A stretch of DNA of 64,000 nucleotides from Thermus parvatiensis. GTDB lineage: Bacteria > Deinococcota > Deinococci > Deinococcales > Thermaceae. A program made the position numbers and the translations under genes. The stretch lies in NCBI RefSeq assembly GCF_001535545.1, contig NZ_CP014141.1, forward strand, positions 1,754,001 through 1,818,000, written 5' to 3'. Shown here piece after piece: positions 1 to 17,887 of the stretch. Below the pieces are notes generated by a model that saw nothing but the letters and a program-made list of their open reading frames with translations, was not told the DNA's origin and did no database searches. The stretch's first letter is position 1, and each line of letters opens with the position of its first letter.

Positions 1-862
1 CCAGGGTTTGCCGCCACTTCTTGCTGACGTAGACTTCGGCCATGTCGGGCAGGGCTTCCACGGCGGTGATTCGCATGGGCTCAAGCTCTTCCGTCCGAAG
101 CACGCACCCCCGGCTCTGGCGTTCCCGGATGAAGGGGAGAACCTTCCGTTCCAGGAAGTCTGCGAAGGCCCACTCGTAGAGGGGGGCCCAGTCGTTGGTG
201 CTCAAGGCGTAGCGATAGGCTGAGTCGTAGCCCCTCGCCACGGCCTCAGGTGAGGAAGCCGGGGATTTGGCCTTTTGGGGCGAAGACCCCTGCGTCACAA
301 GGAAGAGGAAACCGAGGACTATCAGGATGGCGATGCCCACGTAAAGCGTTTCCTTCCGGCTTTGGGCAAGCCAGTTTTTGAGGTGGATCGCGAGGCCATC
401 CCAAAACCCCGGAGGTTTTGGCGCTTCCCAGAGACCGAGCTTGCGCATGGCGGCCTCGGAGGAAGCCGCCTGGTAGAGAAGCCTCAACTCCTCGGGCCCC
501 CAGGTCATCACCCCCAGGGCTTCGGCGTTTTCCAGCGCCGGCTTGGTGAACCCCGAGGGGCAGATGAGGATGCCCTTGTGGGCCCTATGGAGGTCTTTGG
601 CCGCGTGGGTCAGCCTCACCAGGTTTGCGTCTGCCGGGGCGGAAAGGTTTTTGCACTGGATGAGGTAACGCTTGCCCTGGGGGCTTATGGCTTCCACGTC
701 AAGGCCGTTGTCCGGGGCGTTGGTCTGGCTTGGGCGGGAGGCCTTCCACCCGGGCAGGCGAGCGAAGAGGGCCTGGACCACCACTTCAAGCAGCTCCCCC
801 CTATCCACCTGGACCAAATAGGCCGGGTCTTCAAGCAGTTTTAGCAGCGGATCGGGCCTCAT
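1..862 (-). CDS. Membrane-anchored Mrr-like restriction endonuclease (3' end cut off by window edge)
   Basis: Reads leftward from an ATG at 862 that overlaps the repressor stop (ATGA), so the two genes are translationally coupled. Residues about 20-135 look like an Mrr-type nuclease domain: NGLDVEAISPQGKRYLIQCK supplies the D-x-E ... Q-x-K catalytic pattern, followed by a typical Mrr ending (GILICPSGFTKPALENAEALG). Residues about 173-190 form one hydrophobic segment, and the rest (at least 100 residues) is a separate domain with FADFLERKVLPFI. The protein is open at base 1. Being cotranscribed with the phage repressor it would be expressed in the lysogen; a role in excluding other phages or plasmids is my inference. 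A DNA-binding or recombination role cannot be excluded. Confidence 0.75.
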   Translation of the reverse strand, partial: MRPDPLLKLLEDPAYLVQVDRGELLEVVVQALFARLPGWKASRPSQTNAPDNGLDVEAISPQGKRYLIQCKNLSAPADANLVRLTHAAKDLHRAHKGILICPSGFTKPALENAEALGVMTWGPEELRLLYQAASSEAAMRKLGLWEAPKPPGFWDGLAIHLKNWLAQSRKETLYVGIAILIVLGFLFLVTQGSSPQKAKSPASSPEAVARGYDSAYRYALSTNDWAPLYEWAFADFLERKVLPFIRERQSRGCVLRTEELEPMRITAVEALPDMAEVYVSKKWRQTL

Positions 863-1542
863 TTGACTTCCCGGATGCTGATCTTCCGGTAGACCTCCCC
901 GAGCACCTTGACCTCTTCGGGTTCCAGGATGGGGCCTTTGGGGTTATCGGAAACCAGGATCCAGCGGTTGCCTACCCGCCGGGCCCGCTTGATGGTGATG
1001 CCGTCCCCGATGATCTCCACGGCGTAGACTCGGCCTTCCCGGAGGTCCTTGAGGTTCTGGTCCACCAGCACCAAGTCCCCGTCCCGGAGGCCGTCTTCCT
1101 CCCCGGTGTCCATGGAGTCCCCTTCCACCTGGATGAGCACGGAGCCCGGGCGTACCAGGGGGCGGGGGACGGGCATGCTCCCGGACTCGGGCCAAGGCCG
1201 CCCCGCCACGCCGGAGCCCACCACGGGCACCCAGACCACATCCTCCCGAGGCTCCCCCGAGGGGCGGTAGACCAGGGGCACGTCCAGGCCCGTGGCTTCG
1301 GCGAACTCCTCCGGGGTCCAGCGGAGGGCTTTTAAAAGGGCGAAAAAGCGTTCCAAGCCGAGATTGAAGGGGTGGGTTTTCCCTAGCTCAATATCGGATA
1401 TCGTTCGCTGAGCTAGGAGGTCTCCGGTGGCCTCTTCCACCTGCTCTTGCGTCATGCCGAGCTGGAGCCTTCTCCGGCGGATGGCCGAAGCCCATTCCGG
1501 GACTTGCGCCTTCCGAGGTTTGGGCCCCGTTGCTACCGACAC
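859..1542 (-). CDS. CI/LexA-like phage repressor (XRE HTH plus S24 peptidase-type domain)
   Basis: N-terminal XRE helix-turn-helix (RRRRLQLGMTQEQVEEATG, then QRTISDIELGKTHP) followed by a C-terminal S24/LexA-fold domain: VEGDSMDTGEEDGLRDGDLV contains the catalytic Ser in GDSM, and the Lys is in DGITIKRARRV, so auto-cleavage after DNA damage is plausible. The frame is open up to a GTG at 1587, but that codon sits in the operator; I prefer the GTG at 1542 because a TTGTAA-N17-TACTTT promoter ends 6 bases before it, which would give a leaderless message. This is the lysogeny repressor; it faces the early genes across a shared operator region. Confidence 0.82.
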   Translation of the reverse strand: MSVATGPKPRKAQVPEWASAIRRRRLQLGMTQEQVEEATGDLLAQRTISDIELGKTHPFNLGLERFFALLKALRWTPEEFAEATGLDVPLVYRPSGEPREDVVWVPVVGSGVAGRPWPESGSMPVPRPLVRPGSVLIQVEGDSMDTGEEDGLRDGDLVLVDQNLKDLREGRVYAVEIIGDGITIKRARRVGNRWILVSDNPKGPILEPEEVKVLGEVYRKISIREVK

Positions 1543-1548
1543 GCCACT

Positions 1549-1627
1549 AAAGTAGCCCACAGATAGCCCCATTACAACGCAAAACACGCTAGCGGTACTT
1601 GACTAAACCTTTAGGTGCGCTTAGCAT
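1549..1627. promoter_or_regulatory. Divergent immunity switch: leftward and rightward promoters with an operator between them
   Basis: Rightward early promoter TTGACT (1599-1604), 17-base spacer, TAGCAT (1622-1627); transcription would begin at about 1634, three bases before the first early ATG (1637). Leftward repressor promoter TTGTAA (minus strand, 1577-1572), 17-base spacer, TACTTT (1554-1549). Between the two -35 boxes sits the 8-bp palindrome CGCTAGCG (1587-1594). The layout is that of a CI-type genetic switch. The boxes are seen directly; the operator role is inferred. Confidence 0.65.
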
Positions 1628-1636
1628 GAGGACAAC

Positions 1637-1840
1637 ATGCCTGGGGAACTCTTGACAACTGAGGAGGTAGCCAAGCGGCTCAAAATCTCCGTCTTCTTCG
1701 TGAGGCGGAAGATTAGGGAAGGCGCTTTGCCGGCCATCAAGCTTGGGAAGGAATGGAGGGTGCGGGAGGAGGACCTTGACCTTTTTTTGGCTCGCTTTAG
1801 TAAATCACCGCTAGCGGATACCGCTAAGGAGTCACAATGA
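1637..1840 (+). CDS. Excisionase-family HTH protein (first early gene)
   Basis: 67 residues. Residues 5-52 form a MerR/excisionase-type winged helix (LTTEEVAKRLKISVFFVRRK, then IKLGKEWRVREEDLDLFL), the fold of many phage Xis and Cro-like regulators. It is the first gene after the rightward promoter and would be translated from a nearly leaderless message. Position opposite the repressor makes a Cro-like or excisionase role likely; the sequence cannot separate the two. The stop overlaps the next ATG by 3 bases. Confidence 0.7.
   Translation: MPGELLTTEEVAKRLKISVFFVRRKIREGALPAIKLGKEWRVREEDLDLFLARFSKSPLADTAKESQ
1806..1827. promoter_or_regulatory. Second copy of the putative repressor operator
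   Basis: CCGCTAGCGG (1808-1817) is a perfect 10-bp palindrome containing the same CGCTAGCG core as the site at 1587-1594, and TACCGCTA (1819-1826) is the inverse of TAGCGGTA at 1590-1597. It lies at the 3' end of the first early gene, as auxiliary operators often do. Confidence 0.45.
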
Positions 1841-2013
1841 CTCCCCTCCTCGCCCTCTACTTCCTCCTCGCCCTCGTCCTCTACGCCCTGCTGGGCGTCT
1901 ACGTGCGGGCCCGGTACGGCCAGCCCGGGCCCGCCCTGGCCGCCGCTATGGCCTTCCTCGCGGGGCTCATGGCGGCGGTGCTGGTGGTGCTGGCCGTGGG
2001 AGGTGCGCGGTGA
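1837..2013 (+). CDS. Small membrane protein, 58 aa
   Basis: ATG overlaps the preceding stop (ATGA). Two hydrophobic helices (residues about 3-23 and 33-55) joined by a short basic/Pro-Gly turn (VRARYGQPGP). Near-total lack of charged residues elsewhere indicates an integral membrane protein. No recognisable family. It is in the early operon, so it is less likely to be structural than the later membrane proteins. Confidence 0.55.
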   Translation: MTPLLALYFLLALVLYALLGVYVRARYGQPGPALAAAMAFLAGLMAAVLVVLAVGGAR

Positions 2014-2123
2014 AGGGGATTCCGAAGTGGCTTTGGAACTGGGGCTTGGACGTGATGGGGGGCGTTTTGGCGGGGCTCATCCTCCTCTGGGCCTTGGCCC
2101 ACGCCCCCGTTCCGGGGAGGTGA
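2010..2123 (+). CDS. Small membrane protein, 37 aa
   Basis: GTG start overlapping the upstream stop by 4 bases. One transmembrane helix (residues about 13-30, VLAGLILLWALA) after a short Trp/Lys-rich N-terminus (VKGIPKWLWNWG). Retained in the overlapping gene string, which argues that it is a real gene. Function unknown. Confidence 0.5.
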   Translation: MKGIPKWLWNWGLDVMGGVLAGLILLWALAHAPVPGR

Positions 2124-2126
2124 GGC

Positions 2127-2351
2127 ATGCCGAAGCTCATGACGGTTGAAGAGGCGGCGGAATACCTGGGCATTCCCACGAAGCACATCTACGCGGCGGC
2201 GCGGAAGAAGCCGGGGCATCCCGCTCACCTGCGGCACGTGAGGCTGGGCAAGCGCCTCTACTTCCGGGCGGAGTGGCTGGACGAGTGGACCGAGCGGGTG
2301 GCCTCCGAGCCTCCCGCTTCCGTTTTGCGGCTGGAGAGGAGGGCGGAATGA
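2127..2351 (+). CDS. Second excisionase-family HTH protein
   Basis: 74 residues with the helix-turn-helix (MTVEEAAEYLGIPTKHIYAA) followed by the beta-wing (VRLGKRLYFRAEWLDEW) typical of excisionase/AlpA-type proteins. The three bases before its ATG separate it from the previous stop. Together with the gene at 1637 this gives the phage two such proteins, so one may act as Xis and the other as an early regulator. Its stop overlaps the next ATG. Confidence 0.7.
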   Translation: MPKLMTVEEAAEYLGIPTKHIYAAARKKPGHPAHLRHVRLGKRLYFRAEWLDEWTERVASEPPASVLRLERRAE

Positions 2352-2791
2352 CGCTGAGCGAGCAGATCCGGCGGTTGGAGCGGGGCCTGCGGTTGGCCCT
2401 TTGGCGCATGGGCGTGGAGCCCGAGGCCACGCGGGCCCGGGAGGCCTGGGAAAGGGCCAGGTGGGCGGCGGCGTTTGAGAAGAGCACCCTCCAAGGGCGG
2501 GCCTACATGGACGCCCTGCGCCTGGTGAACGAGCTGGAACTGTACGAGGCCCTGGCCGGGGTGGAGCACGTGCGGGTGCGCCCCGCCCCGGCGGATCGCC
2601 CGGGCGAGGCGGCCTTGGCCCGCCTCGAGGCCCTGGGGTACGACGTGCACGTGGAGGACATCTGGGGCCCTCGGGACGGGGAGCGCTGGTGGTGGGCCCG
2701 GGCCCGCTACGAGGGGCGGGAGGTGGCCCAGGCCATCGGGGCTACCCGGGAGGAGGCTCTGGAGTGCCTGATGGGGGAGCTGGGACTATGA
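2348..2791 (+). CDS. Hypothetical early protein, 147 aa
   Basis: Start chosen at the ATGA overlap (2348), not at an upstream in-frame ATG. Mostly helical and highly charged; N-terminus TLSEQIRRLERGLRLALWRM suggests an amphipathic or coiled-coil helix, C-terminal half contains EDIWGPRDGERWWWARARYE. No known domain recognised. Lies between the HTH gene and the replication protein, so a replication or recombination accessory role is possible but unproven. Confidence 0.55.
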   Translation: MTLSEQIRRLERGLRLALWRMGVEPEATRAREAWERARWAAAFEKSTLQGRAYMDALRLVNELELYEALAGVEHVRVRPAPADRPGEAALARLEALGYDVHVEDIWGPRDGERWWWARARYEGREVAQAIGATREEALECLMGELGL

Positions 2792-3039
2792 AGCGGCTGA
2801 AGCTTGAGGACCTGCGGCGGATCGCCAGGAGCCACTTTGACGACCTGCGGGTGGAGCGGCTGGAGGGTTCTTTGCGGTGGGAAGCCTCTGGCCGCCACCG
2901 CTATTACCAGACCCTTTGGGCGGCCACGGGCCGCACGGAGCGGGAGGCCCTGGAGAACCTCCTTGGGCTTCCCACGGATAAGTCGGATTTTAGCCCTTAC
3001 AACGCTGTGGAGGAGCTTCTGAACGGGAGGTCGTCATGA
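2788..3039 (+). CDS. Hypothetical early protein, 83 aa
   Basis: ATG overlaps the previous stop and its own stop overlaps the replication gene start, so it is part of a translationally coupled string. The second half (SLRWEASGRHRYYQTLWAATGRTEREALENL) resembles the C-terminal part of the preceding protein (RWWWARARYEGREVAQAIGATREEALECL), suggesting that the two are related or arose by duplication. Function unknown. Confidence 0.55.
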   Translation: MKRLKLEDLRRIARSHFDDLRVERLEGSLRWEASGRHRYYQTLWAATGRTEREALENLLGLPTDKSDFSPYNAVEELLNGRSS

Positions 3040-4262
3040 ACTTGAACCTCCCCCCGGACATGCCGGAGGACATCCGCCGGCAGATAGAAGACCTCGCCCA
3101 AAAGAACCCCGGCATGGCCCAGGGGCTCCTGCGCCTCTGGGAGGCGAAGCGGAAGCGGGAGGCGGGCGCTTCTTGGAACGAGACCCCTGCTAAAACGCCC
3201 AAGGAGGCCCCCGAGGAGGAGCCCCCTTCCTCGGGGACCCCGGACCGGGCTGGCCTCGAGGCCGCCCCCCCTCAGCGCCCCACCCTGGCCAATACCGACT
3301 GGCGGGAGGTGCGCCGCTTTGAGTGGCAGGACATCCTGGCCAAGGCAGAGCGCACCATAGAGGCCCACGGCTACAAGGAGGTGCTGGGCCCCCTCTTCCC
3401 CCTGGTGCGCCTCCTGGTGGCCTACGCCATCTGGGAGGGGGCCCGCCTGGACCCCTCCCGGGAGGCCCACGTCTTCCTCCCCCAGTGGGAGGTGGCCCAG
3501 GCCCTGGAGGTCTCCGAGCGCACGGTGGAGCGGTGGCTCCACGACCCCCGCTATGAGAAGTACCGCCGCTACGCCCGCCACTGGATCGCCTGGGAGACCT
3601 GGATGACCTCAGGGCGGGCCCTGGAGCGGGAGGGGGCGGTGAAGGGGGGCACCGTGTGGCGGGTCAGGGTGCGCCCCGTCTACCGGGCCATCCGGGTCCT
3701 GGCCCCCTACCTCCGCCTCACCTGGCGGGACCTGGAGGAGGACCGGCGGGAGGGCCGGACGGCCCGGGTGTTGAGTGACCCCGACTCAATGTCGGGATAC
3801 AAAGAGGGTCTTCTACTAGGTAGACCCTTAACCCTAAGGATCGTGGTAGGGGAGCCGTTAGCCACCTGGGAAAGCAAAAAAACCCCGTTACTATTAGATC
3901 CCGACACTCGCCGGAACTTCCGGGAACTTCTCCGGCTTTCCAGCGTCCCCGGGGGCCGGAACGGCCGCCGGAACTGGGCCCAGCAGGCGGCGTCCGCCAT
4001 CGCCGCCGCCCTGGGAGACCAGAAGAGCGTGCGCTTCTGGCTCCGGGTGGTCTGGGCCGCCCTCAAGCAGGCCCTTTTTGGGGGAGGGGAAGGAGCCATG
4101 AGGGTCCTGGCCCGGGTGGTGGGCCTCGCGGCCGAAGCCCGGGCTGATGGCTTCGCCCGGAGCCCTGGGGCCTACGCCCAGGCCCTCCTGCGGCGGGAGG
4201 GGTACTGGGACCTGGTGGCCCCCTTCCAGGCCTTCAGAGCGGGGGTGCCCTATGCGGGTTGA
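3036..4262 (+). CDS. Putative replication initiation protein, 408 aa
   Basis: Largest early gene. N-terminus acidic and Pro-rich (residues 1-85). Residues about 145-175 contain a winged-helix/HTH signature (LPQWEVAQALEVSERTVERW), followed by a basic stretch (HDPRYEKYRRYARHW). The C-terminal 130 residues are basic and helical. Size, position after the early regulators and the AT-rich repeat-bearing island embedded at 3776-3930 fit a phage or plasmid initiator that binds an origin within its own gene, as lambda O does. No polymerase, helicase or HUH motif is visible. Function is inferred. Confidence 0.55.
   Translation: MNLNLPPDMPEDIRRQIEDLAQKNPGMAQGLLRLWEAKRKREAGASWNETPAKTPKEAPEEEPPSSGTPDRAGLEAAPPQRPTLANTDWREVRRFEWQDILAKAERTIEAHGYKEVLGPLFPLVRLLVAYAIWEGARLDPSREAHVFLPQWEVAQALEVSERTVERWLHDPRYEKYRRYARHWIAWETWMTSGRALEREGAVKGGTVWRVRVRPVYRAIRVLAPYLRLTWRDLEEDRREGRTARVLSDPDSMSGYKEGLLLGRPLTLRIVVGEPLATWESKKTPLLLDPDTRRNFRELLRLSSVPGGRNGRRNWAQQAASAIAAALGDQKSVRFWLRVVWAALKQALFGGGEGAMRVLARVVGLAAEARADGFARSPGAYAQALLRREGYWDLVAPFQAFRAGVPYAG
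3776..3930. other. AT-rich island with repeats inside the replication gene: candidate origin
   Basis: Local composition drops sharply below the roughly 70% GC around it. It contains a hairpin CCCGAC/GTCGGG (3780-3785 and 3791-3796, 5-base loop), a third CCCGAC at 3900-3905, an imperfect palindrome GGGTCT...AGACCC (3806-3827), an A7 run, and two GGAACTTC repeats (3913-3920 and 3923-3930). Rare codons (CTA, TTA, ATA-like usage) are used here only. This is the layout of an initiator-bound origin; experimental support is absent. Confidence 0.4.
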
Positions 4263-4611
4263 TCGGGTGCGGCTAGAGGCGGTGACGGATATCCTCCAGC
4301 ACCGGCTTCAGGAGGCCTTGGAGCAGCCTGGCCGGCTGGTGGCCTTTGCCCTTCGCACCTCCCCGAGCGATGGGGTGCAGGTTTTCTTGAAGCTCCGGCC
4401 CGATGGCCGGCTGGTCCTCGCCATCCGCCGGCCGGGAGGGAAGGAGGACCCTCGGGAGATCCAGGCCCTGGCCCGGCACATGGGGCTGGAGATACGGGAG
4501 GGGCCCATGGAGATGGCGGGCAGGATCCCGAGGCCGAAGGTCGGGCCCAGGAAATACCTGGTGGCCTTCTGTGAGCCAGTCAAGGGAGGCCATAATGCAA
4601 ATCCTGCTTGA
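4252..4611 (+). CDS. Hypothetical early protein, 119 aa
   Basis: ATG at 4252 overlaps the end of the replication gene by 11 bases. Basic-acidic alternating protein; middle section VQVFLKLRPDGRLVLAIRRP suggests a small beta-sheet domain and the C-terminus is basic. No family recognised. Its tail overlaps the start of the DndC-like gene by 17 bases, indicating coupled translation. Confidence 0.55.
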   Translation: MRVDRVRLEAVTDILQHRLQEALEQPGRLVAFALRTSPSDGVQVFLKLRPDGRLVLAIRRPGGKEDPREIQALARHMGLEIREGPMEMAGRIPRPKVGPRKYLVAFCEPVKGGHNANPA

Positions 4612-5602
4612 AGACATGATTTCCTGGCATGCCGATTTCGCTCCGGACCTCAAGGAGGCCGTGGCCTTGGCCGAGCGCGCCCTCGAGGCCGCCCTCGCCC
4701 AGGGGGCCGAGACCTTCGTCCTCACCTACTCGGGGGGCAAGGACTCCACCGCCACCACCGTCCTCACCCTGGAGTGGTGGAAGCGCAAGGGGAAGCCCGT
4801 GGAGATCCACGTGGTCTACGCCGACACGGGGCTGGAGATCCCCACCCTCCACGCCCAGGCCCTGGCCTTCCTGGAGGCGGTGAAGAGGCTCCACCCCGGG
4901 GTCCACGTTCACACCGCCCGCCCCCGCCCCGAGGAGAGCTTCTGGGTCCAAATCATCGGCAAGGGCTACCCCCCGCCCCACAACCGCTTCCGCTGGTGCA
5001 CCCGCAGGTTGAAGATCGCCCCCATGGACCGCCTGGTCCAGAGCCTTCCCGGGAAGAAGGCCATCCTCACGGGGGTGCGCTTCGGGGAGTCGGACGCCCG
5101 GGACCAGAGGCTCGTCCTCTCTTGCTCCCGGGGCGGGGAGTGCGGCCAGGGGGTGCTCTTCCAGGAGGCCAAGCGTCTGAACGCCCTCTACGTGGCCCCC
5201 ATCGCCTTCTGGCGGGAGTGCTTCGTGTGGGACTACCTGAACTTCGTGGCCCCCTCCCTGGGCTACCCCACGGAGGGCCTGGAGGCGGTCTACGGGGGCC
5301 GGGACACCCGCTTCGGGTGCTGGACCTGCACCGTGGTGCGGCGGGACAAGGCCATGGCGCGGGCCCTGGAGAACGGCCACGCCCACCTCCTCCCCCTCTA
5401 CGAGTTCCGGGAGTGGCTTTGGGCGTGGACCCGGGATCCTGCGACCCGGGTAAAGCGGAAGGACGGCAAGCCCGGGGGGCTCACCCTCGAGGCCAGGCGG
5501 GAGGTGTACCGGAGGTTGAAGGAGGTGGAGGCGAAGCTCGGGATGGAGCTCCTCACTTCCGAGGAGGAGGCTTTTTTGAGAGATAGGATGGAGGAATCAT
5601 GA
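4595..5602 (+). CDS. DndC-like sulfurtransferase (PAPS reductase family), 335 aa, orphan
   Basis: Start ATG 4595 is preceded by GGGAGG. N-terminal adenine nucleotide alpha-hydrolase fold with PP-loop TYSGGKDSTATT (residues about 47-58). Cysteine-rich signatures of DndC follow: FRWCTRRLKIAPMD, SCSRGGECGQG, and RFGCWTCTVVRRDKAMA, which would hold a 4Fe-4S cluster. DndC activates and transfers sulfur during DNA phosphorothioation, normally together with DndA, DndB, DndD and DndE; none of these is present here, so it would need host cysteine desulfurase and unknown partners, or act in another PAPS-reductase-like reaction. The protein is shorter than typical DndC (about 500 aa). Cotranscribed with replication genes. 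Confidence 0.8.
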   Translation: MQILLEDMISWHADFAPDLKEAVALAERALEAALAQGAETFVLTYSGGKDSTATTVLTLEWWKRKGKPVEIHVVYADTGLEIPTLHAQALAFLEAVKRLHPGVHVHTARPRPEESFWVQIIGKGYPPPHNRFRWCTRRLKIAPMDRLVQSLPGKKAILTGVRFGESDARDQRLVLSCSRGGECGQGVLFQEAKRLNALYVAPIAFWRECFVWDYLNFVAPSLGYPTEGLEAVYGGRDTRFGCWTCTVVRRDKAMARALENGHAHLLPLYEFREWLWAWTRDPATRVKRKDGKPGGLTLEARREVYRRLKEVEAKLGMELLTSEEEAFLRDRMEES

Positions 5603-5676
5603 CACCTAGCCAGAAAGCCTTTGGGTTGGCCCTACTTGTGGGCATCGTGGCCTTGACACCTAGAGGCGTGCTATGA
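5599..5676 (+). CDS. Very small membrane peptide, 25 aa
   Basis: ATG overlaps the DndC-like stop (ATGA) and its own stop overlaps the next ATG (ATGATG). One hydrophobic stretch (FGLALLVGIVAL). The double 4-base overlap is the main reason to accept it as a gene; it may simply couple translation of its neighbours. Confidence 0.35.
   Translation: MTPSQKAFGLALLVGIVALTPRGVL
5600..5663. repeat. Direct repeat TGACACCTAG, also found inverted at the right end of the prophage
   Basis: TGACACCTAG occurs at 5600-5609 and 5654-5663. The inverse core TAGGTGTC occurs twice, 11 bases apart, at 17727-17734 and 17738-17745 next to the tRNA-Ile. Four copies of an 8-bp word with two clustered beside the attachment region hint at a shared protein-binding site (integrase arm sites or a regulator). 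Confidence 0.35.
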
Positions 5677-5966
5677 TGCGGGGGATGGAACTCAAAAAAG
5701 GGCGCCCCGGTAGGCGTATCCTGGCCCTCGCCACCCGCAAGCGGAACCCGGTGCCGATTGAGTCTCAGCCGCTGGAAAACCTCCTCTACGCCCTCCTGGG
5801 AAGCCCAGTGGCCGCCCGGTCCATCGCCCAGGCCCTGGACGGGGATATCCGCAACTTGCACGGCTGGGACATCCAGGACCTCATGGCCCTGCCCGGGGTG
5901 GGGGAGGGGGTGGCGGGCCGCCTCGCGGCCCTAGTGGAACTTGTGCGCAGGCTTGTGAAGCGCTAA
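5673..5966 (+). CDS. Helix-hairpin-helix protein, 97 aa
   Basis: Basic N-terminus (KKGRPGRRILALATRKRN) and a C-terminal tandem HhH motif (MALPGVGEGVAGRLAALVEL) like that in the N-terminal domain of RadC-type proteins or RuvA. It would bind DNA non-specifically through the backbone. Last gene of the early operon, followed by a terminator. Role in replication or recombination is inferred. Confidence 0.65.
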   Translation: MMRGMELKKGRPGRRILALATRKRNPVPIESQPLENLLYALLGSPVAARSIAQALDGDIRNLHGWDIQDLMALPGVGEGVAGRLAALVELVRRLVKR

Positions 5967-6000
5967 GGTTCACTTCGCCCGGGCGGTTCGCCCTGGCGTT

Positions 6001-6036
6001 CCGGCCCGCCGCTTCGCCATGGCGGGCCGGGCTTTT
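6001..6036 (+). terminator. Intrinsic terminator of the early operon
   Basis: Perfect 10-bp stem CCGGCCCGCC (6001-6010) / GGCGGGCCGG (6021-6030) with a 10-base loop, then GCTTTTG. Separates early genes from the virion block. Confidence 0.7.
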
Positions 6037-6067
6037 GTTGCCCGCCTCTGGACGGCAGGCTGAGGGC

Positions 6068-6628
6068 ATGGCCTACCAGCGGGTGCCCGTGGACCCCAAC
6101 GCTCCTCTTCGGCCGGGAAAGACCTACGAGATCGTGGCGGCCCACAAAGGGGGGGACGTTTCCCGGGTCACGCGGGCCAATTTGGAGCGGGCCCTTCAGG
6201 CTAAATACGGCCCCGGGGTCAGGGTGCTGGACTGGGGGAAGCGGGGAAATGACCTGGTGATCCGGTTGAAGGTGGAGACCACGTCTTCCTCCGCCGGTAC
6301 CTCTGACCCCTGGGCTGTGCCTCCCGCCTACGGGGGGGCGGGATGTGGGTCCACCAAGTGCCCCCAGCCCATGGGCTACCTGGGCGGGGGGGACATCTAC
6401 CCGGCCTTCCTGCCCCTGGCCCTCAGCGCCGCCGCGGTCATCGCCGTCCTCTATCTGGTTTGGCGGATCGTGGCCGAGCTGAAGGAGGCGGTGGAGCTGG
6501 TGCCGGCCCCGGCCCGGGCGGCCGCCGTGGCGGGCGCGGGGGTGGGCGTGGGGGCCCTCGGGCTGGCCGCCCTGGGTGTGGTGGCCCTGGCCCTTGTTGG
6601 TGGAAGGAGAAGGAGGGCGTATGCCTAA
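6068..6628 (+). CDS. Membrane protein, 186 aa, first gene of the virion/lysis block
   Basis: Soluble N-terminal domain (residues 1-85, mixed charge) followed by a Gly/Pro/Cys linker (about 86-115) and two hydrophobic segments (about 118-138 and 157-180), ending in RRRRAYA. Likely an internal-membrane or membrane-associated virion protein. No SD as strong as its neighbours. Family not recognised. Confidence 0.6.
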   Translation: MAYQRVPVDPNAPLRPGKTYEIVAAHKGGDVSRVTRANLERALQAKYGPGVRVLDWGKRGNDLVIRLKVETTSSSAGTSDPWAVPPAYGGAGCGSTKCPQPMGYLGGGDIYPAFLPLALSAAAVIAVLYLVWRIVAELKEAVELVPAPARAAAVAGAGVGVGALGLAALGVVALALVGGRRRRAYA

Positions 6629-6671
6629 GAAGACCAGGAAGACCAAGAGGAAGAAGCGCTCTCGGAGGTAG
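6621..6671 (+). CDS. Tiny, extremely basic peptide, 16 aa
   Basis: MPKKTRKTKRKKRSRR: 11 of 16 residues are Lys or Arg. It has a near-ideal ribosome binding site (AAGGAGGG, 9 bases before the ATG) and overlaps the upstream gene by 8 bases. Such a peptide could neutralise packaged DNA or bind RNA. Too short for homology-based calling; the strong SD and neighbours in a tight operon support it. Confidence 0.5.
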   Translation: MPKKTRKTKRKKRSRR

Positions 6672-6674
6672 ACC

Positions 6675-7076
6675 ATGCTCCGGCTCAAGCTCCCGGAGGA
6701 GGTCGTAGGCGAGAAGGCCGTCCTGGAGGAGGAGGGGGAGGCCAGAGAGGTGAAGGCCGTCCCCCTCCAGGGGCCTTTAGACCCCATTCTGGAGGCCGCC
6801 GTGGAGTCCCAGCCCCGGGTGGCCGGGCCTAAAGAGGCCTCGCAGGAGGAGCCCGCCAGGCCCGAACCCGAGCCCGAGGAGCCCCCCAGGGGTGCCCCTA
6901 AGAAGAGCCCCTTCGGCTTTCTCGCGGCCCTGGGGGCCGGGGCCCTGGTCCTCCTGGGCGTGGCCCTGGCCGGAAAAGGAGGTGCGAGTGCAAACGGTAG
7001 TGGAGGAACCCCAGGCGCAAACCCCACCCCCACCGCCCCCGGTGGAGGAAGCGGAAGCGGCCCCGTCATCTGGTAG
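6675..7076 (+). CDS. Single-pass membrane protein with acidic N-terminus, 133 aa
   Basis: Acidic, Glu/Pro-rich N-terminal 75 residues, then a transmembrane helix (FGFLAALGAGALVLLGVALA, about 79-98), then a Gly/Pro/Ser/Thr-rich tail. Its last 89 bases overlap the next gene in another frame, so the low-complexity tail may be constrained by the neighbour's coding. Likely virion membrane protein. Confidence 0.55.
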   Translation: MLRLKLPEEVVGEKAVLEEEGEAREVKAVPLQGPLDPILEAAVESQPRVAGPKEASQEEPARPEPEPEEPPRGAPKKSPFGFLAALGAGALVLLGVALAGKGGASANGSGGTPGANPTPTAPGGGSGSGPVIW

Positions 7077-7509
7077 CTGGGAGCCCCTAGGCGAGGAGGC
7101 CCCGGAAGACTTCTCTGAGCTTCCGCCGGCGGAGCCTCCCGTGATCCCCTTCACCGGGGAGGAGATCGCGGGCGGGGCGGCGTTTTTGCTCATGCTCGGG
7201 GTGCGGGTCCAGTCGGAGGAGGAAAAGGCCGCGTTTCTGCGGGCTTGGCAGGGGGCCCTCTTCGGCCTCATGCCCCCGGCCCAGGTGCTGGACGTCCTGA
7301 AGGTCGGGGAGGCCCTGGCCCAGTACGGCATCGGGAAGAACCGCCTTCCGGGCATGGGGAGCGTGGAGAACCTTCCCCCGTGGCTGCGGATCCTCCTGGG
7401 CGGCGGAGTGCTGGCTATAGCGGCGTACGGAGGTGTGCGTGCGGTTATGGATGTACGGGCTTCTAGGACTGCTGGGGGTGCTCCTGATGGTGCGCCGCCA
7501 AGCGCCTAG
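6988..7509 (+). CDS. Membrane protein with Pro-rich N-terminus, 173 aa
   Basis: Start GTG 6988 chosen because AAGGAGG ends 5 bases upstream; that start lies within the preceding gene. Pro/Glu-rich N-terminus (EEPQAQTPPPPPPVEEAEAA), a central helical domain (FTGEEIAGGAAFLLMLGVRV through LMPPAQVLDVLKVGEALAQY) and a transmembrane segment near residues 133-152 (LRILLGGGVLAIAAYGGVRA). Its 3' end overlaps the amidase gene by about 70 bases. Confidence 0.55.
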   Translation: MQTVVEEPQAQTPPPPPPVEEAEAAPSSGSWEPLGEEAPEDFSELPPAEPPVIPFTGEEIAGGAAFLLMLGVRVQSEEEKAAFLRAWQGALFGLMPPAQVLDVLKVGEALAQYGIGKNRLPGMGSVENLPPWLRILLGGGVLAIAAYGGVRAVMDVRASRTAGGAPDGAPPSA

Positions 7510-8020
7510 TGCCTACATCGTCCTGGACCCCGGCCATGGCGGGCAGGATCCCGGGGCTGTGGCCCCGGACGGCACCCGGGAGGCCGATTTGAACCTGGCC
7601 CAGGCTCTCACCCTGAAGGAGTACCTGGTGGCCCTGGGCTACCGGGTGGGGTTCACCAGGACCTCGGACGTCTATGTCCCCCTTTCTGAGCGTATTGCCA
7701 TGGCCCGGAGGATGGGGGCGAGGCTCTTCATATCGGTCCACCATGACACTCCCACGGCCTCGAGGCCCGGGGTCTACTACTCCCCTCATCCGGGATCCGA
7801 GGAGTTGGCCCGCACCGTGGCCGCCGCCTTGGGGGAGGGGGCATGGGTTAGGCCCTCTTCGGCCTCGAGGTTCGGACGCCTCTACATAGACGACTTCCCC
7901 GGCCCGGCCATCCTGGTGGAGTTCGGCCCCACGCGGCCCATCAGCAGGGCAGAGAGGATCGCCCGGGCTCAGGCCGTAGCCTCTCCGATAGCTGAGTTTG
8001 CGAGGAGGTGGACGGCGTGA
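7439..8020 (+). CDS. N-acetylmuramoyl-L-alanine amidase (Amidase_3), phage endolysin
   Basis: 193 aa from GTG 7439 (GGAGGT 5 bases upstream; ATG 7451 also possible). N-terminal transmembrane or signal-anchor helix (MYGLLGLLGVLLMV) then a complete Amidase_3 domain: DPGHGGQDPGA (Zn His), GTREADLNLA (Zn Glu), FISVHHDTPT (Zn His) and AILVEFGPT (catalytic Glu). Cleaves the lactyl-amide bond of peptidoglycan. The N-terminal anchor suggests export without a holin or incorporation in the viral membrane. Placed directly before virion genes. Confidence 0.88.
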   Translation: MRLWMYGLLGLLGVLLMVRRQAPSAYIVLDPGHGGQDPGAVAPDGTREADLNLAQALTLKEYLVALGYRVGFTRTSDVYVPLSERIAMARRMGARLFISVHHDTPTASRPGVYYSPHPGSEELARTVAAALGEGAWVRPSSASRFGRLYIDDFPGPAILVEFGPTRPISRAERIARAQAVASPIAEFARRWTA

Positions 8021-8160
8021 AAGAGCGGTGGATCCAAAACGCCATCACGCGCCCCGGACGCCTCCGGGCCTACGTGCGGCGGGTGTACGGAGAGGAGGGC
8101 TTTACGAAACGGGGGACGATCCGCGTGGAGGTCCTGCGGGAGTTCCGAAAGGAGGAGTGA
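8017..8160 (+). CDS. Small basic protein, 47 aa
   Basis: GTG overlaps the amidase stop by 4 bases. Strongly basic (13 Lys/Arg), predicted alpha/beta: VKERWIQNAITRPGRLRAYV then RGTIRVEVLREF. Could bind nucleic acid. Family unknown; kept because of perfect coupling to both neighbours. Confidence 0.5.
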   Translation: MKERWIQNAITRPGRLRAYVRRVYGEEGFTKRGTIRVEVLREFRKEE

Positions 8161-8348
8161 TGGAGTTCGCCAAGGAGAACGCTTTTCCCCTCGCGGTCCT
8201 GGTGGGAGGCCTCTACCTGGGCCTCGGACGGGTGAAAAACCTCCGGGAGGGCAAGTGCTGCCCCAAGTGCGAGACCGCCCAGGCCGTGGTGGCCTTCGCC
8301 TTGGCCGCCTGGGCCGGGTGGGAGCTGTGGCAGGCCTACCAGGGCTAG
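8160..8348 (+). CDS. Small membrane protein with CxxC, 62 aa
   Basis: Start ATG 8160 with AAAGGAGGAG upstream. Two hydrophobic segments (residues about 8-23 and 39-58) separated by REGKCCPKCETAQA, a small zinc- or thiol-type motif. Sits immediately before the packaging ATPase (adjacent codons, no gap). Confidence 0.55.
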   Translation: MEFAKENAFPLAVLVGGLYLGLGRVKNLREGKCCPKCETAQAVVAFALAAWAGWELWQAYQG

Positions 8349-9029
8349 ATGGGCGGCAGGCAGACCTTCCGCATCCTCATCGTGGGCAAGTCCGGGTCAG
8401 GGAAGTCCACCCTGGCCCGGCAGATCGTGCGGGCTATGGAGGGCCGCTTCCGCCGCCTCGTCATCGTCAACCGCAAGACGGAGTTCGGTGATTTGGCAGA
8501 GGCCCGTTTCCGCGTGGGGGAGGACGGGGACCCCTGGGCTGTTTTGAAGCGCCACCGCAGGGTCCACTTCCACGTCACCGGCTACGACCCCCGCCCCTTT
8601 TTGGATGCCCTGGGCCAGGCCATCATGCGCCTCCAGGACACCCTTCTGCTGCTTGACGAGGCCCACCACTTTTTTCCCCGGGGGCAGGTGCCCAAGGGCC
8701 TCTTTGAGGTCCTGACCGGGGGAAGGGAGCACGGGCATTCGGCCATCTTCGTCACCCAGATGCTCCAGGCCGCCACCGGGGGCATAGACCCCGGGGTGCG
8801 CCGTCAGGCCTCCCACCTGGTGGCCTTCCGCCTCACGGAACCCCGGGAAGTCCAGGCCCTGGCGGACATGTTCCCCGAGCTGGGGGAGCGGGTCAGGCTC
8901 CTCAAGCGCCCCGATGACGGCCTGCCCCCGGAGTACGGGGTGAAGGACCTGGACCGGGACCGGGCGGGCCTGGTCCTCCGGGACCCGAGGGCCCCACAAA
9001 GGCGGGTTTTCGTGCCCCTGGACGGCTAA
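8349..9029 (+). CDS. FtsK/HerA-type genome packaging ATPase, 226 aa
   Basis: Walker A IVGKSGSGKSTLA (residues about 11-23), Walker B DTLLLLDEAHHFFPRG (about 95-110) and a following sensor (SAIFVTQMLQAATGG). Size and order fit the packaging ATPases of the PRD1-adenovirus lineage and of P23-77, which pump DNA into a preformed capsid. ATG follows the upstream TAG directly. A strong terminator/palindrome follows. Confidence 0.88.
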   Translation: MGGRQTFRILIVGKSGSGKSTLARQIVRAMEGRFRRLVIVNRKTEFGDLAEARFRVGEDGDPWAVLKRHRRVHFHVTGYDPRPFLDALGQAIMRLQDTLLLLDEAHHFFPRGQVPKGLFEVLTGGREHGHSAIFVTQMLQAATGGIDPGVRRQASHLVAFRLTEPREVQALADMFPELGERVRLLKRPDDGLPPEYGVKDLDRDRAGLVLRDPRAPQRRVFVPLDG

Positions 9030-9030
9030 G

Positions 9031-9112
9031 GGGCACTTCGCCCGGGCGAAGTGCCCGGGCGAAGCGGCCCAAAACTCCCAAGCGCCCCGGCGTATCTCCG
9101 GGGCGCTTCGCT
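9031..9112. terminator. Long perfect palindrome followed by an intrinsic terminator
   Basis: 9031-9056 is a perfect 26-bp palindrome centred on CCCGGG; 15 bp of it (9034-9048) recur at 5971-5985 before the first terminator. Then AAGCGCCCCGG (9080-9090) / CCGGGGCGCTT (9098-9108) forms an 11-bp stem with 7-base loop followed by CGCTCTTTATT. Ends the ATPase operon before the capsid genes. No clear -35/-10 pair is visible in the following 50 bases. Confidence 0.7.
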
Positions 9113-9163
9113 CTTTATTCCCCCATCGCCCCCCGCCTACCGTGGGCGGCAGAAGGAGGGCGA

Positions 9164-9580
9164 ATGGCGGATACGGCGGCAATCGCGGCGCAGGACATGC
9201 GCAAGCTTGCCTCCACCAGCAACCCCCTGGAGGTGGTGCAGAACCCCATCGTGGTGAGCGTGAGCGTGGGGGTGCTAGGGGCTTATCTGGCGCGGAAGGC
9301 GCTCTATACGTCCAGGCGCGACCTCTTTGGCTGGGCGGCGAAGGGCGAGGACGGGCGTGTCCACTACTACGCGGTGGGTCCGGACGGAAAGCCCGACACC
9401 AGCAAGGAGGTCCCGAACGCCCGGACCAACAGGGTGTTGCTCAACCTGGGCGGGGTCATCGTGGGCTCACTGCTCATCAACAACAAGCTGACCGAGGACC
9501 CCATGGTGGACTACATCGGCTTAGGCGTGGCGGCCGGTTCCTTCGCGAACCTGGTCATGGCGATTTTGGACATTGACTAA
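9164..9580 (+). CDS. Membrane-associated virion protein, 138 aa
   Basis: AAGGAGGGCGA precedes the ATG. Two amphipathic/hydrophobic regions (IVVSVSVGVLGAYLARKALY at about 29-48; LNLGGVIVGSLLINN and IGLGVAAGSFANLVMAIL near the end). Placed immediately before the capsid genes, matching the position of a minor structural protein in P23-77. Exact identity not recognised. Confidence 0.6.
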   Translation: MADTAAIAAQDMRKLASTSNPLEVVQNPIVVSVSVGVLGAYLARKALYTSRRDLFGWAAKGEDGRVHYYAVGPDGKPDTSKEVPNARTNRVLLNLGGVIVGSLLINNKLTEDPMVDYIGLGVAAGSFANLVMAILDID

Positions 9581-9591
9581 GGAGGTAAAGG

Positions 9592-10107
9592 ATGCAGGAG
9601 GCTTTTGAGCGGATCAAGCGGCTTCGGCCCGGGGCCCGCCCCATCACCATCCTGAGGAGCGGCCCCGAGTTCAAGGCGTACGGCGGCAGGCAGAAGGTGA
9701 AGGTGGGCGAGTTCGTGGTGCCCTCGGGGGCCACTTGGGTTTTTCCAAATCCCGTCCCCGTGGTCCTCAAGCTCTACGATTCCGGCGGCAACCAGCTGCC
9801 CCACACCACGGACGTCTACTTCGCCCGGCGCACCAAGGGCTTTGACTTCCCCGAGTTTTTGGTCAAGGCCCAGTACGCTTCGTACTACGACCTCTCCGAG
9901 GCCCAGCAGCGGGACGCCAAGTTCTACCAGAACATCCTGCAGACCGCGAGCCCACTTTACGCCCCTACCCCGCCCCAGGGCATCGTGCTGCGGGAGGGGG
10001 ACACCCTGGAGATCTACGTGGAGACCGACCCCGGCATCACCGTGAACCTCAACGACTCCCGCACCCGCATTGAGCTGCCCGTGGGCGTGGACAACTCCAA
10101 CGTGTAG
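9592..10107 (+). CDS. Small major capsid protein (P23-77 VP16-like), 171 aa
   Basis: Strong SD (AAGGAGGTAAAGG). All-beta composition with [20 protein letters not shown] and [10 protein letters not shown] near the N-terminus and [20 protein letters not shown] near the end, consistent with a single upright beta-barrel. Length is close to P23-77 VP16 (about 173 aa) and it directly precedes a 291-aa partner, as VP16 precedes VP17. VP16 and VP17 together build the capsomers of these viruses. Confidence 0.8.
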
Positions 10108-10115
10108 GAGGGACT

Positions 10116-10991
10116 ATGGCGCTCTTGGATAGCCTTCGCAACGCGGTTCGGAGGGGCCTCGGGGTGTTCCAGGACGCCCCTTCCGCCCCCTCCCCCGCGC
10201 CTCAGCCGCAGCCCCAGCCGGCGCGGCCTGCCCCGGCGGCGGTCCAGGCCTCGGGGTGGCAGTTCGCCTGGATTGACAACGAGGACTTTGACGCCACCGG
10301 CCTGGCCTACCGCCCCAATGAGTATTTCGCCCTGGCCCAGATGCGCACCCCGGACACGGCCCACTTCCGCATCCTGGCGGGAGAGCGGCGCCTGCGCATC
10401 TACCTGAAGGGCCTGGCCGCCTTCGCGGGCCAGAATCTGGCCACGGCCCAGGCCCGCACCGTCACCCTGCCCTACCTCATCCCCTCCTTGCAGGGGGCCC
10501 CTACCCTGCCCTCCACCTACCACCCAGACGTGGCCGTCTGGGCCAAGGTGGGCGGGGTGTGGCAGCGGTGCCAGATCAATGACGTCAACTACGCGAGCCA
10601 GCAAGTGACCTTCTTTGAGCCCGCCGGCGTGACCGGCGCCCAGGACATTGAGGTCTACTACACCCACGCTGACGGGCAGTTCCGCCTCCGGGTGGCCCGG
10701 GACGCGGGCGGGGTGGACGACAGCGTGGCCACCGTCTTCAACCAGTCCTTCTCCACCATGCACAGCGTGGACCAGAACAACCTGGAGACCATGCTGGCCT
10801 GGCCCCAGCAGGTGGAGCTGGTGCCGGGCACCCGCCTTCTCCTGGAGGTCTTCACCACCCAGGTGCCCATGGTCTGGAACGAGCGGGCCGGCCACTACAT
10901 CCAGATCGCCGCCATGGGCCGGCGGGTGGAGGTGCTGGACAAGAGCCGCCTCTTGCGCCTGGCTGAGCTGGAGAACCGGGGCGGCCTCTGA
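10116..10991 (+). CDS. Large major capsid protein (P23-77 VP17-like), 291 aa
   Basis: GGAGGG SD before ATG. N-terminal amphipathic helix (MALLDSLRNAVRRGLG) that could touch the membrane, a Pro/Ala/Gln linker (residues about 22-45), then an all-beta body. The 291-residue length equals that of P23-77 VP17, which has two stacked beta-barrels of which one is the capsid core and the other a turret. Order and spacing after the VP16-like gene strengthen the call. Confidence 0.82.
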   Translation: MALLDSLRNAVRRGLGVFQDAPSAPSPAPQPQPQPARPAPAAVQASGWQFAWIDNEDFDATGLAYRPNEYFALAQMRTPDTAHFRILAGERRLRIYLKGLAAFAGQNLATAQARTVTLPYLIPSLQGAPTLPSTYHPDVAVWAKVGGVWQRCQINDVNYASQQVTFFEPAGVTGAQDIEVYYTHADGQFRLRVARDAGGVDDSVATVFNQSFSTMHSVDQNNLETMLAWPQQVELVPGTRLLLEVFTTQVPMVWNERAGHYIQIAAMGRRVEVLDKSRLLRLAELENRGGL

Positions 10992-11002
10992 GGGGGTGAG
11001 CC

Positions 11003-11398
11003 ATGCCGTTCGGCCTCTCCGAATCCTATTCCCCCAGCCTTTCGGGGTACACGCCCCCCTACACTCTCTTGGACTCCGGGGCTTCGGGGTCCTGGGGGTT
11101 CAGCCTCTCCAACTCCTACACCCTTCCCCTTACGGGGGGCGTTTCCGGGAGCGCTGGAGACACCCCCCTCTGGGCCCAGATCTTGGGCGGGCTGGGCCAG
11201 ATTGGGAGCCTCATTGACCCCTACATCCTGACCGAGCAGGAACGCCTGCAGTACCAGCTGCAGCTCGCCCAGGCCCAGGCGGAAGCGGCCAAAGCACAAG
11301 CCGCGAGCGTCCAAGCGCAGCCCGTGGTGCCCGTGTGGGTCTGGGTCCTGGTGGGCCTCGGGGTGGTCCTCCTGGTGGTCCTTGCATTGAAGGAGTGA
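11003..11398 (+). CDS. Virion membrane protein, 131 aa
   Basis: Ser/Gly/Tyr-rich N-terminal half (residues 1-50), then a helical segment with a Gln/Ala coiled coil (ERLQYQLQLAQAQAEAAKAQ) and a C-terminal transmembrane helix (VPVWVWVLVGLGVVLLVVLA). The motif DPYILTEQERLQYQ matches DDFIFTDEERMALE in the next protein, so the two are paralogues. Confidence 0.6.
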   Translation: MPFGLSESYSPSLSGYTPPYTLLDSGASGSWGFSLSNSYTLPLTGGVSGSAGDTPLWAQILGGLGQIGSLIDPYILTEQERLQYQLQLAQAQAEAAKAQAASVQAQPVVPVWVWVLVGLGVVLLVVLALKE

Positions 11399-11400
11399 GC

Positions 11401-11655
11401 ATGGACGTTTTTGGCGGGCTCATCGGTGGGGTCACCAACCTGCTGGACGACTTCATCTTCACGGATGAGGAGCGCATGGCCTTGGAGGCCCAAAAGGCGG
11501 CCGCCCAAGCCCAGATGGAAGCGGCCCGCTTGGCCCAAGAGCGGGCCATGTTGGAGGCCGCCGCCCGAGCCCGCCAGGCCCAGGCCCTCACCGTGGCCGC
11601 CGTCACCGTAGGAGCGGCGCTGGTGATGGCCGTGCTGGTTTGGAGGTGGACATGA
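11401..11655 (+). CDS. Virion membrane protein, 84 aa, paralogue of its upstream neighbour
   Basis: Start ATG 11401 follows GAAGGAGTGAGC. N-terminal LLDDFIFTDEERMALEAQKA followed by an Ala/Gln/Glu coiled coil and a C-terminal transmembrane helix (LTVAAVTVGAALVMAVLVW). Same architecture as the 131-aa protein minus its N-terminal Ser/Gly domain, which suggests tandem duplication. Confidence 0.6.
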   Translation: MDVFGGLIGGVTNLLDDFIFTDEERMALEAQKAAAQAQMEAARLAQERAMLEAAARARQAQALTVAAVTVGAALVMAVLVWRWT

Positions 11656-12302
11656 GCGAGAACACCCTTTTGGGGGTTGCGGCGATAGGAGCAGTGGTCG
11701 TGGGAGGACTCATCGCCTGGAGGATGACCGATCCCAACAGGCAGCGTGTGCCGTACGCCCCGGCCCAGCCTGTCGTGCCCCCCTCCTCTCAACCGGTTCT
11801 GCCTCCTTCCTCTCAACCCATTTCTACCCCGACCCCTCCGCAGACTTTCCCAACGTTGCCCAATCCCATTGCCACTCCCACCCCAACTCCTACCCCGACC
11901 CCCCAAACCCCCACCATCACCAAGGGGCAGCTTTGCGCGGACCTGAAAGCAAAGCTGCAAAAGCTCCAGTCTGCCGCGGACGATGTGAAGAAGAAGATGA
12001 ACGATCTGGTGGCCAAGGGGTCCAGCGCGGATACGAACTGCTGGAGCTACGCCAAGCGGGAGGCTTGCTTCTGGGAAATCTGCTCCCCTGCCCTGGGCGG
12101 GAACTACAACGCCTGCATGGACTACGTGAAGGGGCAGGGGCCCCGGCCGGGAAATCTCTTCAACTACGACGACTCCCGGGCGGTGGACCAGGCGGCCCAG
12201 CAGTACGCGGCCCTGAAAGACGAGCTGGAGACCTACCAGGCTCAGATTGAGGGGGTCAAGAAGCAGCTACAGCAGCTGGCCACGGAGGGGGTGGTCTGCT
12301 AG
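11652..12302 (+). CDS. Membrane-anchored protein with Pro/Thr stalk and coiled-coil Cys domain, 216 aa
   Basis: N-terminal transmembrane helix (LLGVAAIGAVVVGGLIAW), then a 60-residue Pro/Thr/Ser stalk (residues about 35-92; nearly pure Pro-Thr alternation at the end), then a helical domain with coiled-coil heptads (LCADLKAKLQKLQSAADDVK) and six cysteines (NCWSYAKREACFWEIC, NACMDY, final VVC). The layout of anchor, extended stalk and disulfide-stabilised head suits a surface-exposed virion component. Function inferred. Confidence 0.6.
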   Translation: MSENTLLGVAAIGAVVVGGLIAWRMTDPNRQRVPYAPAQPVVPPSSQPVLPPSSQPISTPTPPQTFPTLPNPIATPTPTPTPTPQTPTITKGQLCADLKAKLQKLQSAADDVKKKMNDLVAKGSSADTNCWSYAKREACFWEICSPALGGNYNACMDYVKGQGPRPGNLFNYDDSRAVDQAAQQYAALKDELETYQAQIEGVKKQLQQLATEGVVC

Positions 12303-12526
12303 TGGAGTGGAAGGACGTCATGGACATGGGCTTGGGGGCAGTGGCCTTTGCGGCGTTCCTGAAGCTCGTGTTCCGGGATGTGGCCGAGGTGCGGGAGCGT
12401 TTGGCCCGGATAGAGGAGAACGGCCGCCGGCAGGCCTATTACCTCTCCCGGGTGGCGAACGCCATGGAGGCCCAGGCTTACCGGCAGGGCCTTCGGGTGA
12501 GGGAGGTGAAAGAGGATGGAAAGTAG
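12302..12526 (+). CDS. Small membrane protein with coiled coil, 74 aa
   Basis: GTG overlapping the upstream TAG (in-frame ATG 12320 is an alternative start). Short hydrophobic helix (MGLGAVAFAAFLKLVF) followed by DVAEVRERLARIEENGRRQA, a coiled coil like those of XhlA/holin-associated phage proteins. It could be part of the lysis apparatus or a virion membrane protein. Confidence 0.5.
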   Translation: MEWKDVMDMGLGAVAFAAFLKLVFRDVAEVRERLARIEENGRRQAYYLSRVANAMEAQAYRQGLRVREVKEDGK

Positions 12527-12818: not shown

Positions 12819-12826
12819 GGTGACGG

Positions 12827-13607: not shown

Positions 13608-13608
13608 C

Positions 13609-14227: not shown

Positions 14228-14236
14228 GAGGAGGTA

Positions 14237-15396: not shown

Positions 15397-15405
15397 GGAG
15401 GAAGC

Positions 15406-17746: not shown

Positions 17747-17752
17747 AAGGTC

Positions 17753-17782: not shown

Positions 17783-17795
17783 TCCCTTGCTTATC

Positions 17796-17872
<77 letters not shown>

Positions 17873-17887
17873 CCGCACGCACCCGCC

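Follow-up and report, generated by a model that had tools for sequence, protein, structure and literature searches.

A TdpC-family gene among the replication genes of a Thermus provirus and its possible part in the marking of viral DNA

Why would a virus carry, within its run of replication genes, a single gene for an enzyme of the DNA-sulfurating type? This question is raised by an intact open reading frame at 4595-5602 (+ strand) of the window, by which we mean the whole analysed stretch of 64,000 nucleotides from Thermus parvatiensis. Its product is a PP-loop ATP pyrophosphatase of 335 amino acids, which an earlier note on this DNA had read as an orphan DndC-like sulfurtransferase. Comparisons of sequence give good support to a different assignment, a protein of the TdpC family and not a TdpABC system. 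With a probability of roughly two in three, we favour the reading that the gene is a virus-borne tdpC without the TdpA/TdpB effector, and that its product puts phosphorothioate into viral DNA, which is thereby spared by TdpAB.

The provirus and the position of the gene

Positions 1-18000 of the window show 92% identity to IN93 over 77% of their length. A 45-bp attachment repeat in tRNA-Ile is present on both sides, the left copy starting 1.39 kb to the left of the window and the right copy located at 17796-17840 (+). The interval from the left repeat to position 1 of the window holds the integrase gene, whose product is 95% identical to the IN93 integrase. Together with the IN93-like backbone and the att site, the genes for two major capsid proteins (MCP1 at 9592-10107 and MCP2 at 10116-10991, both +) and for a packaging ATPase (8349-9029, +; 79% to the packaging ATPase of P23-77) characterize a Matsushitaviridae provirus, as had been proposed in the earlier note. 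The provirus also encodes a LexA/CI-like repressor (859-1587, -; phrog_4). The host genome comprises 2,016,098 bases, including a chromosome contig of 1,872,821 bp.

Linkage of the gene to phage replication genes, claimed previously, is confirmed. Upstream of it, in the same gene run, are Rep, which encodes the replication protein of the virus (3036-4262, +; phrog_30283, E 2e-235; 60.5% to the Tsatsa “replication protein”), and orf2 (4252-4611, +; phrog_29754), and tdpC overlaps both of its neighbours. Orf2 overlaps Rep at its upstream end and tdpC, by 17 nt, at its downstream end, and the tdpC stop overlaps the ATG of a remnant of the IN93 ORF3 homologue (5599-5676, +; 25 amino acids). In contig L016 the ORF3 homologue downstream of tdpC is whole, instead of the 25 codons left in the window. 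The G012 provirus aligns without gaps across 5599-5676, so it shares the shortened form.

No homologues of DndB, DndD or DndE were detected by tblastn in window 1-18000, and no DndD above the cut-off was found in the genome. For DndB, DndD and DndE, the absence of Dnd partners stated earlier is confirmed in this part of the window; with no such DndD in the genome, interference with a host Dnd system, suggested as one possible function, is not supported. TdpA and TdpB are not encoded in window 1-18000 either; both are found elsewhere on the same chromosome. The host genome also encodes a SufS desulfurase.

The segment between orf2 and orf5 (5673-5966, +; phrog_29187, with weak helix-hairpin-helix matches) is a variable slot in related viruses and proviruses, orf5 forming its right border. 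In 8 of 14 resolved slots it is occupied by tdpC (Tsatsa, the window, G012, G010 and four IMG/VR contigs). There is no room for tdpC in the slots of IN93, G015 and G022 contig 1, while G022 contig 2 and G008 carry small genes which, read by eye, resemble ribbon-helix-helix proteins (L108:8862-9426 and L107:8836-9030). In P23-77 the slot holds a gene of another PP-loop family (L005:1889-2656; phrog_424), and two unlike sulfur-type enzymes thus occupy one slot across relatives. One IMG/VR slot is broken inside tdpC at both contig ends (L026 and L100, with codons 1-53 and 293-335 visible), and in another (L104) only the 3' end of tdpC is present. Set aside from this census were IMG/VR contig 2513237279 (a near-identical provirus, tdpC 99%), IMG/VR copies of IN93 and P23-77, L101 (no Rep or orf2 homologue found) and L103 (a fragment).

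Assignment to the TdpC family

The window protein contains a PAPS_reduct domain (PF01507, E 9.4e-15) and scores best with models of the DndC type (PRK06850, 160 bits; TIGR03183, 150 bits; PADLOC DndC, 163 bits), remaining below the cut-off of 290.4 bits for canonical DndC (TIGR03183). In the PADLOC library, which has no cut-offs, BrxP and SspD score 49.6 and 46 bits, against 163 for DndC. The model for assimilatory PAPS/APS reductases (CysH, PRK02090) gives 31.6 bits against a cut-off of 154, and a CysH reading was rejected on this score. A tRNA-thiolation reading was abandoned on kinship alone, and canonical DndC on the combination of model score, tree position and cysteine pattern.

The previous claim that the PP-loop and Fe-S cysteines of DndC are all present is only partly upheld. 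The PP-loop motif SGGKDS is found at residues 46-51 (4730-4747, +), but of five cysteine columns kept in 4/4 canonical DndC rows just three are occupied. These are C135 in FRWCT (4997-4999, +), and C242 and C245 in CWTC (5318-5329, +), common to TdpC and DndC. Three further cysteines, C177 and C183 in CSRGGEC (5123-5143, +) and C209 in FWREC (5219-5221, +), complete a set of six that is kept in all 15 TdpC rows, and these three are absent from the four canonical DndC rows and from 13 other DndC-like rows (12 IMG/VR contigs and one plasmid). The reverse is seen for two insert cysteines before GCWTC, which are present in 4/4 canonical DndC and 13/13 other DndC-like rows and in none of the 15 TdpC rows. 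In all eight viral or phage-like rows compared, the PP-loop and the six cysteines are intact. The census does not include the G020 tdpC, near-copies, partial IMG/VR copies, L060-L062, L071, L073, P23-77 ORF3 and five PAPS-like outgroup rows, and alignment A8 was made without L018 (which runs off its contig), L023, L024, L025 and L027.

Of the matching records, 4 of 20 from phages (Tsatsa, L002, L003 and L004) and 6 of 174 from plasmids (L007 and L080-L084) were examined, so that four rows stand for canonical DndC. At 32-42% identity, the TdpC cysteine signature recurs in five phage or plasmid “PAPS reductases” (L002:4902-6098, L003:4890-6101, L004:4878-6110, L007:7893-9074 and L078:6995-8137). 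All but the last directly adjoin DNA methyltransferase genes, and these four may represent a paired module for modification of backbone and base. The initial notion that every viral DndC-like gene is lone was dropped, as IMG/VR contigs L020, L022 and L023 carry DndD.

A DndC search of the same genome disclosed a second copy of the gene at chromosome position 12.5 kb, with 92% protein identity to the window protein. At the DNA level, a stretch of 926 bp (4646-5571, +) is 97.4% identical to the chromosomal tdpC (contig L011), and its edges are sharp and located inside the ORF, while the first 17 and the last ~10 residues of the two proteins differ. Because the DNA match stops inside the ORF on both sides, this looks like recombination within tdpC, with transfer that may have gone in either direction. 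The designation “orphan” is therefore correct for the virus, but not for the cell, where the second copy belongs to a three-gene operon.

Chromosomal tdpC is followed by ORFs of 375 and 607 amino acids. The 375-aa product is identical over all 375 residues to TdpB of PDB entries 8wet, 8wfd and 8y1k (8wet_G), and the 607-aa product groups with TdpA of the same entries (8wet_A; profile search, E 0) and with HerA models. Since the second and third products match TdpB and TdpA, we identify the operon as TdpABC. The remaining one of its three genes presumably encodes the protein called TdpC, an assumption based on gene order and on what is reported of this system; no significant match to any PDB chain was obtained with the TdpC profile. 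TdpB has no Pfam match, one chance-level match in NCBIfam and one weak match in PADLOC. A NurA-like label based on motifs was replaced, and its name came only from the PDB sequence search. Just upstream of the operon, on the minus strand, is a gene pair for a PIN toxin and a MazE-type antitoxin (L011:9602-10430).

In a tree of 42 rows, the window protein is placed in the TdpC clade (support 85/99; not a starred branch), separate from both canonical DndC and a distant outgroup of PAPS-like proteins. The grouping with assimilatory PAPS reductases named in the earlier note as contrary evidence was not found in this tree, in which the outgroup is PAPS-like and contains no assimilatory CysH. Also not included are the G020 tdpC (frame break, draft contig), near-copies, partial IMG/VR copies, L060-L062, L071, L073 and P23-77 ORF3. 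Within the TdpC clade, groups are formed by three sequences of a Clostridiales MAG (100/100), by the window type (98/100) and by the Tsatsa type (100/99).

Fold searches were run with an AlphaFold2 prediction for the window protein (pLDDT 82.2, pTM 0.84). The best Foldseek match is APS reductase 4bwv (8.6e-7); in VIA, the model reaches a Z of 17.4 with CysD (177 residues, 3.5 A) and of about 15 with PAPS reductases. The predicted fold is thus that of PP-loop enzymes, shared with CysH, CysD and TtuA, and informs about fold and not about substrate. A separate model of the MAG protein has a pLDDT of 72.6; the fold searches refer to the window model only.

Distribution, origins and selection

Among 27 Thermus genomes, TdpC matches are present in eight and this TdpB in six. 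The six are exactly the Thermus genomes with a non-proviral tdpC, and the order tdpC-tdpB-tdpA is observed in all of them. It is kept even in G016, despite identities that fall to 69, 41 and 52% (with window TdpC, G000 TdpB and G000 TdpA as queries). The other two genomes, G010 and G012, have tdpC as a proviral copy only and no such TdpB; the Thermus sample contains three proviruses with tdpC, and two of them are in these genomes. Including one other Thermaceae genome (G071) and one contig of the Clostridiales MAG (L065), eight operon copies were found, and outside viruses and phage-like contigs 8/8 tdpC copies found precede tdpB and tdpA. Two of the operons are altered. In G020 (a genome 65% complete) there are frame breaks, and the contig ends within tdpA. 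The tdpB gene of G007 is interrupted by an insertion of ~1.2 kb (L040:8879-11191), with tdpC and tdpA looking intact, and this is perhaps a genome with the mark and without the effector.

The window protein has matches in 12 of 111 Deinococcota genomes, strong in nine and weak in three; the weak PAPS-type matches, in G053, G060 and G100, were treated as other families. TdpB was not confirmed in viral contigs (11 stretches found with degenerate patterns) and was not found in plasmids. In the class of the MAG, a single strong TdpB match was obtained in 154 genomes, in addition to a weak one (E 2.7e-4), and a scan of viral contigs with a MAG protein as query again returned only three contigs, all of Thermus type.

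The Clostridiales MAG carries, besides the operon, two lone tdpC copies, in L064 and L067, which share 90% and 86% identity, respectively, with the copy in the operon. In L064 the gene is followed on the same strand by genes for a replication-initiation protein, DnaB and SSB. In L067, genes for an ArdC anti-restriction protein (PF08401; phrog_7245), a C5 methyltransferase, an SNF2 helicase and SSB are located nearby on the opposite strand, and the combination of lone tdpC, ArdC and C5 methyltransferase (L067:3967-6472 and 6932-7978) resembles an anti-restriction cluster. Both contigs are called phage-like because of these neighbour genes, and not on capsid genes. Mis-binning is possible in this MAG, and its operon contig is just 5 kb long.

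Mapping of the viral label requires four changes on the best tree, and starred branches alone force two, which suggests at least two separate viral origins of tdpC. Between the window and Tsatsa, TdpC is 86% identical, which is above the values for seven other virus proteins (Rep 61%, orf2 61%, orf5 53%, ATPase 76%, MCP1 76%, MCP2 67% and repressor 56%), as would be expected of a gene that passes from one virus backbone to another.

The tdpC frame is whole in all eight viral or phage-like copies compared, and purifying selection acts on the gene. The dN/dS ratio is 0.30 for the window and Tsatsa genes (334 codons); in the MAG, comparison of the operon copy with each of the lone copies gives 0.125 and 0.19. 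The value of 0.61 between the window and chromosomal tdpC is raised because the protein ends differ.

Proposed role, alternatives and known systems

The Thermus TdpABC system is reportedly a DNA-phosphorothioation defence. TdpC is said to adenylate the DNA backbone, after which sulfur replaces the adenyl group; phage DNA free of phosphorothioate is reportedly degraded by TdpAB, and phosphorothioate inhibits it. From the likeness of the viral protein to TdpC we infer a role in DNA marking and counter-defence. The overlap of the genes suggests that TdpC would be made together with the virus replication proteins. With ATP and with sulfur from a host cysteine desulfurase, it could adenylate and then sulfurate the backbone of replicating viral DNA, as supposed by analogy with TdpC of the operon. 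Progeny genomes would then be phosphorothioated whatever host made them, and in a cell with TdpABC the TdpA translocase and TdpB nuclease would spare them, if phosphorothioate blocks TdpAB as reported. Because G010 and G012 are genomes without TdpB, protection there would serve later hosts only, a point that weighs against the proposal, as do the deviating ends of the window protein and the dN/dS of 0.61 towards chromosomal tdpC. Sulfur in phage DNA as a means to evade restriction, which the earlier note had listed among its options, is thus the option with the best support, except that the system concerned is not Dnd but TdpABC, on the same chromosome.

Phosphorothioated viral DNA could also counter other nucleases (restriction enzymes, Argonaute or host exonucleases) or tune viral expression, in which case kinship with Tdp would tell the origin of the gene only. 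The presence of two of the three tdpC-bearing proviruses in genomes without TdpB fits such a role, as does a phage that is activated by phosphorothioate (PT) modification through changed repressor binding (PMC8569181). We nevertheless regard it as unlikely, since in two phyla the source of the gene, or its partner in exchange, is the same system whose mark it would imitate. Lysogenic conversion is rather improbable. Proviral TdpC might add to phosphorothioation of the host and in this way guard lysogens from self-attack by TdpAB, or it might keep the provirus in the manner of an addiction gene, and operon and provirus do occur together in G000, the genome of the window; against this, the gene overlaps replication genes and lies outside the repressor-to-integrase segment, the one presumed to be transcribed in the prophage state of IN93 according to Kolesnik et al. 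2024 (PMC11437467), and of the three Thermus genomes that harbour a provirus with tdpC, two lack TdpB.

It is very improbable that the viral protein works as an interfering subunit, binding host sulfur donors or TdpAB and blocking the system without DNA modification. The terminal residues, which are unlike those of chromosomal TdpC, could speak for it, yet retention of the PP-loop and six cysteines in 8/8 viral or phage-like rows is what one would expect if the protein were an enzyme rather than a decoy. The PAPS_reduct domain and a fold common to CysH, CysD and TtuA would agree with an auxiliary metabolic gene, active during infection in assimilatory PAPS/APS reduction or in thiolation of tRNA or nucleotides. 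The low PRK02090 score, and nearest relatives that reside in a DNA-modification defence operon, make this scarcely credible. Least probable of all is neutral cargo acquired by recombination and of no benefit, even if the slot is variable, with no room for tdpC in IN93, G015 and G022 contig 1 and other genes in P23-77, G008 and G022 contig 2; it conflicts with the whole frame in 8/8 viral or phage-like copies, with a dN/dS of 0.30 over 334 codons between distant viruses and with at least two separate viral origins.

Marking of viral DNA by TdpC, the reading we prefer, may have a wider bearing. Provided that DNA sulfuration by TdpC needs neither TdpA nor TdpB, as reported, one gene and a host desulfurase could suffice to alter the backbone of virus DNA. 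With odds slightly better than even, viruses of thermophiles have repeatedly taken the sulfurating gene of TdpABC, making phosphorothioated virion DNA that TdpAB cannot attack; the wider set of signature-bearing genes, 4/5 of which stand beside methyltransferases, would then be anti-restriction modules for backbone and base.

The novelty concerns the viral use and not the enzyme, the window gene being a viral version of what is probably the modification gene of an already known host defence. The earlier note knew of no described function for a lone DndC in this virus group; the gene itself is already in print. In the accessible portion of Kolesnik et al. 2024 (PMC11437467), a PAPS reductase gene is described in Tsatsa, a cultivated relative infecting T. 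thermophilus HB8, with a homologue in the corresponding place in P23-77; phosphorothioation is named there among possible contexts, the gene is flagged as worth study, and “Tdp” does not appear in that portion. If true, marking by viral TdpC would explain a gene that these authors flagged for investigation. A literature search, with most subscription papers outside its coverage, yielded no paper linking the Tsatsa gene to Tdp and none combining NurA, HerA and DndC. Under the same coverage, the titles and abstract starts among the matches listed held no report of a virus-borne TdpC or of a virus-encoded phosphorothioation enzyme as counter-defence.

Among known systems, the closest is TdpC of Thermus TdpABC (published by An et al. 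2025, Nat Chem Biol 21:1160), which shares with the window protein the PP-loop, all six cysteines and, in the operon copy of the same genome, 92% identity. The window gene differs in being viral, without TdpA and TdpB, placed beside virus replication genes and provided with other first 17 and last ~10 residues. Tsatsa_3, a “PAPS reductase” (PQ109078), occupies the same virus slot at 86-87% identity. Its annotated start at 1710 is probably late, because the open frame extends back to a GTG at 1611 (L001:1611-2669) and the extra residues align loosely with other TdpC N-termini, as seen on the near-identical G010 copy. P23-77 ORF3, a “phosphoadenosine phosphosulfate reductase”, has the same slot and PP-loop superfamily, but with 255 aa, membership in phrog_424 and just 57 alignable residues (35%, E 0.001) it belongs to a different family. 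Canonical DndC (TIGR03183) has in common the PP-loop and the RWCT and GCWTC cysteines, whereas the window protein falls below its cut-off, is without the two insert cysteines, has three others and is found in window 1-18000 with no DndB, DndD or DndE partners.

Phage-borne methyltransferases that copy the self-mark of the host are a textbook form of counter-defence. By analogy, viral tdpC would be the phosphorothioate counterpart of the phage orphan methyltransferase, which is likewise a modification enzyme without a restriction partner and marks phage DNA as self; in the case of TdpC, the mark would be on the sugar-phosphate backbone.
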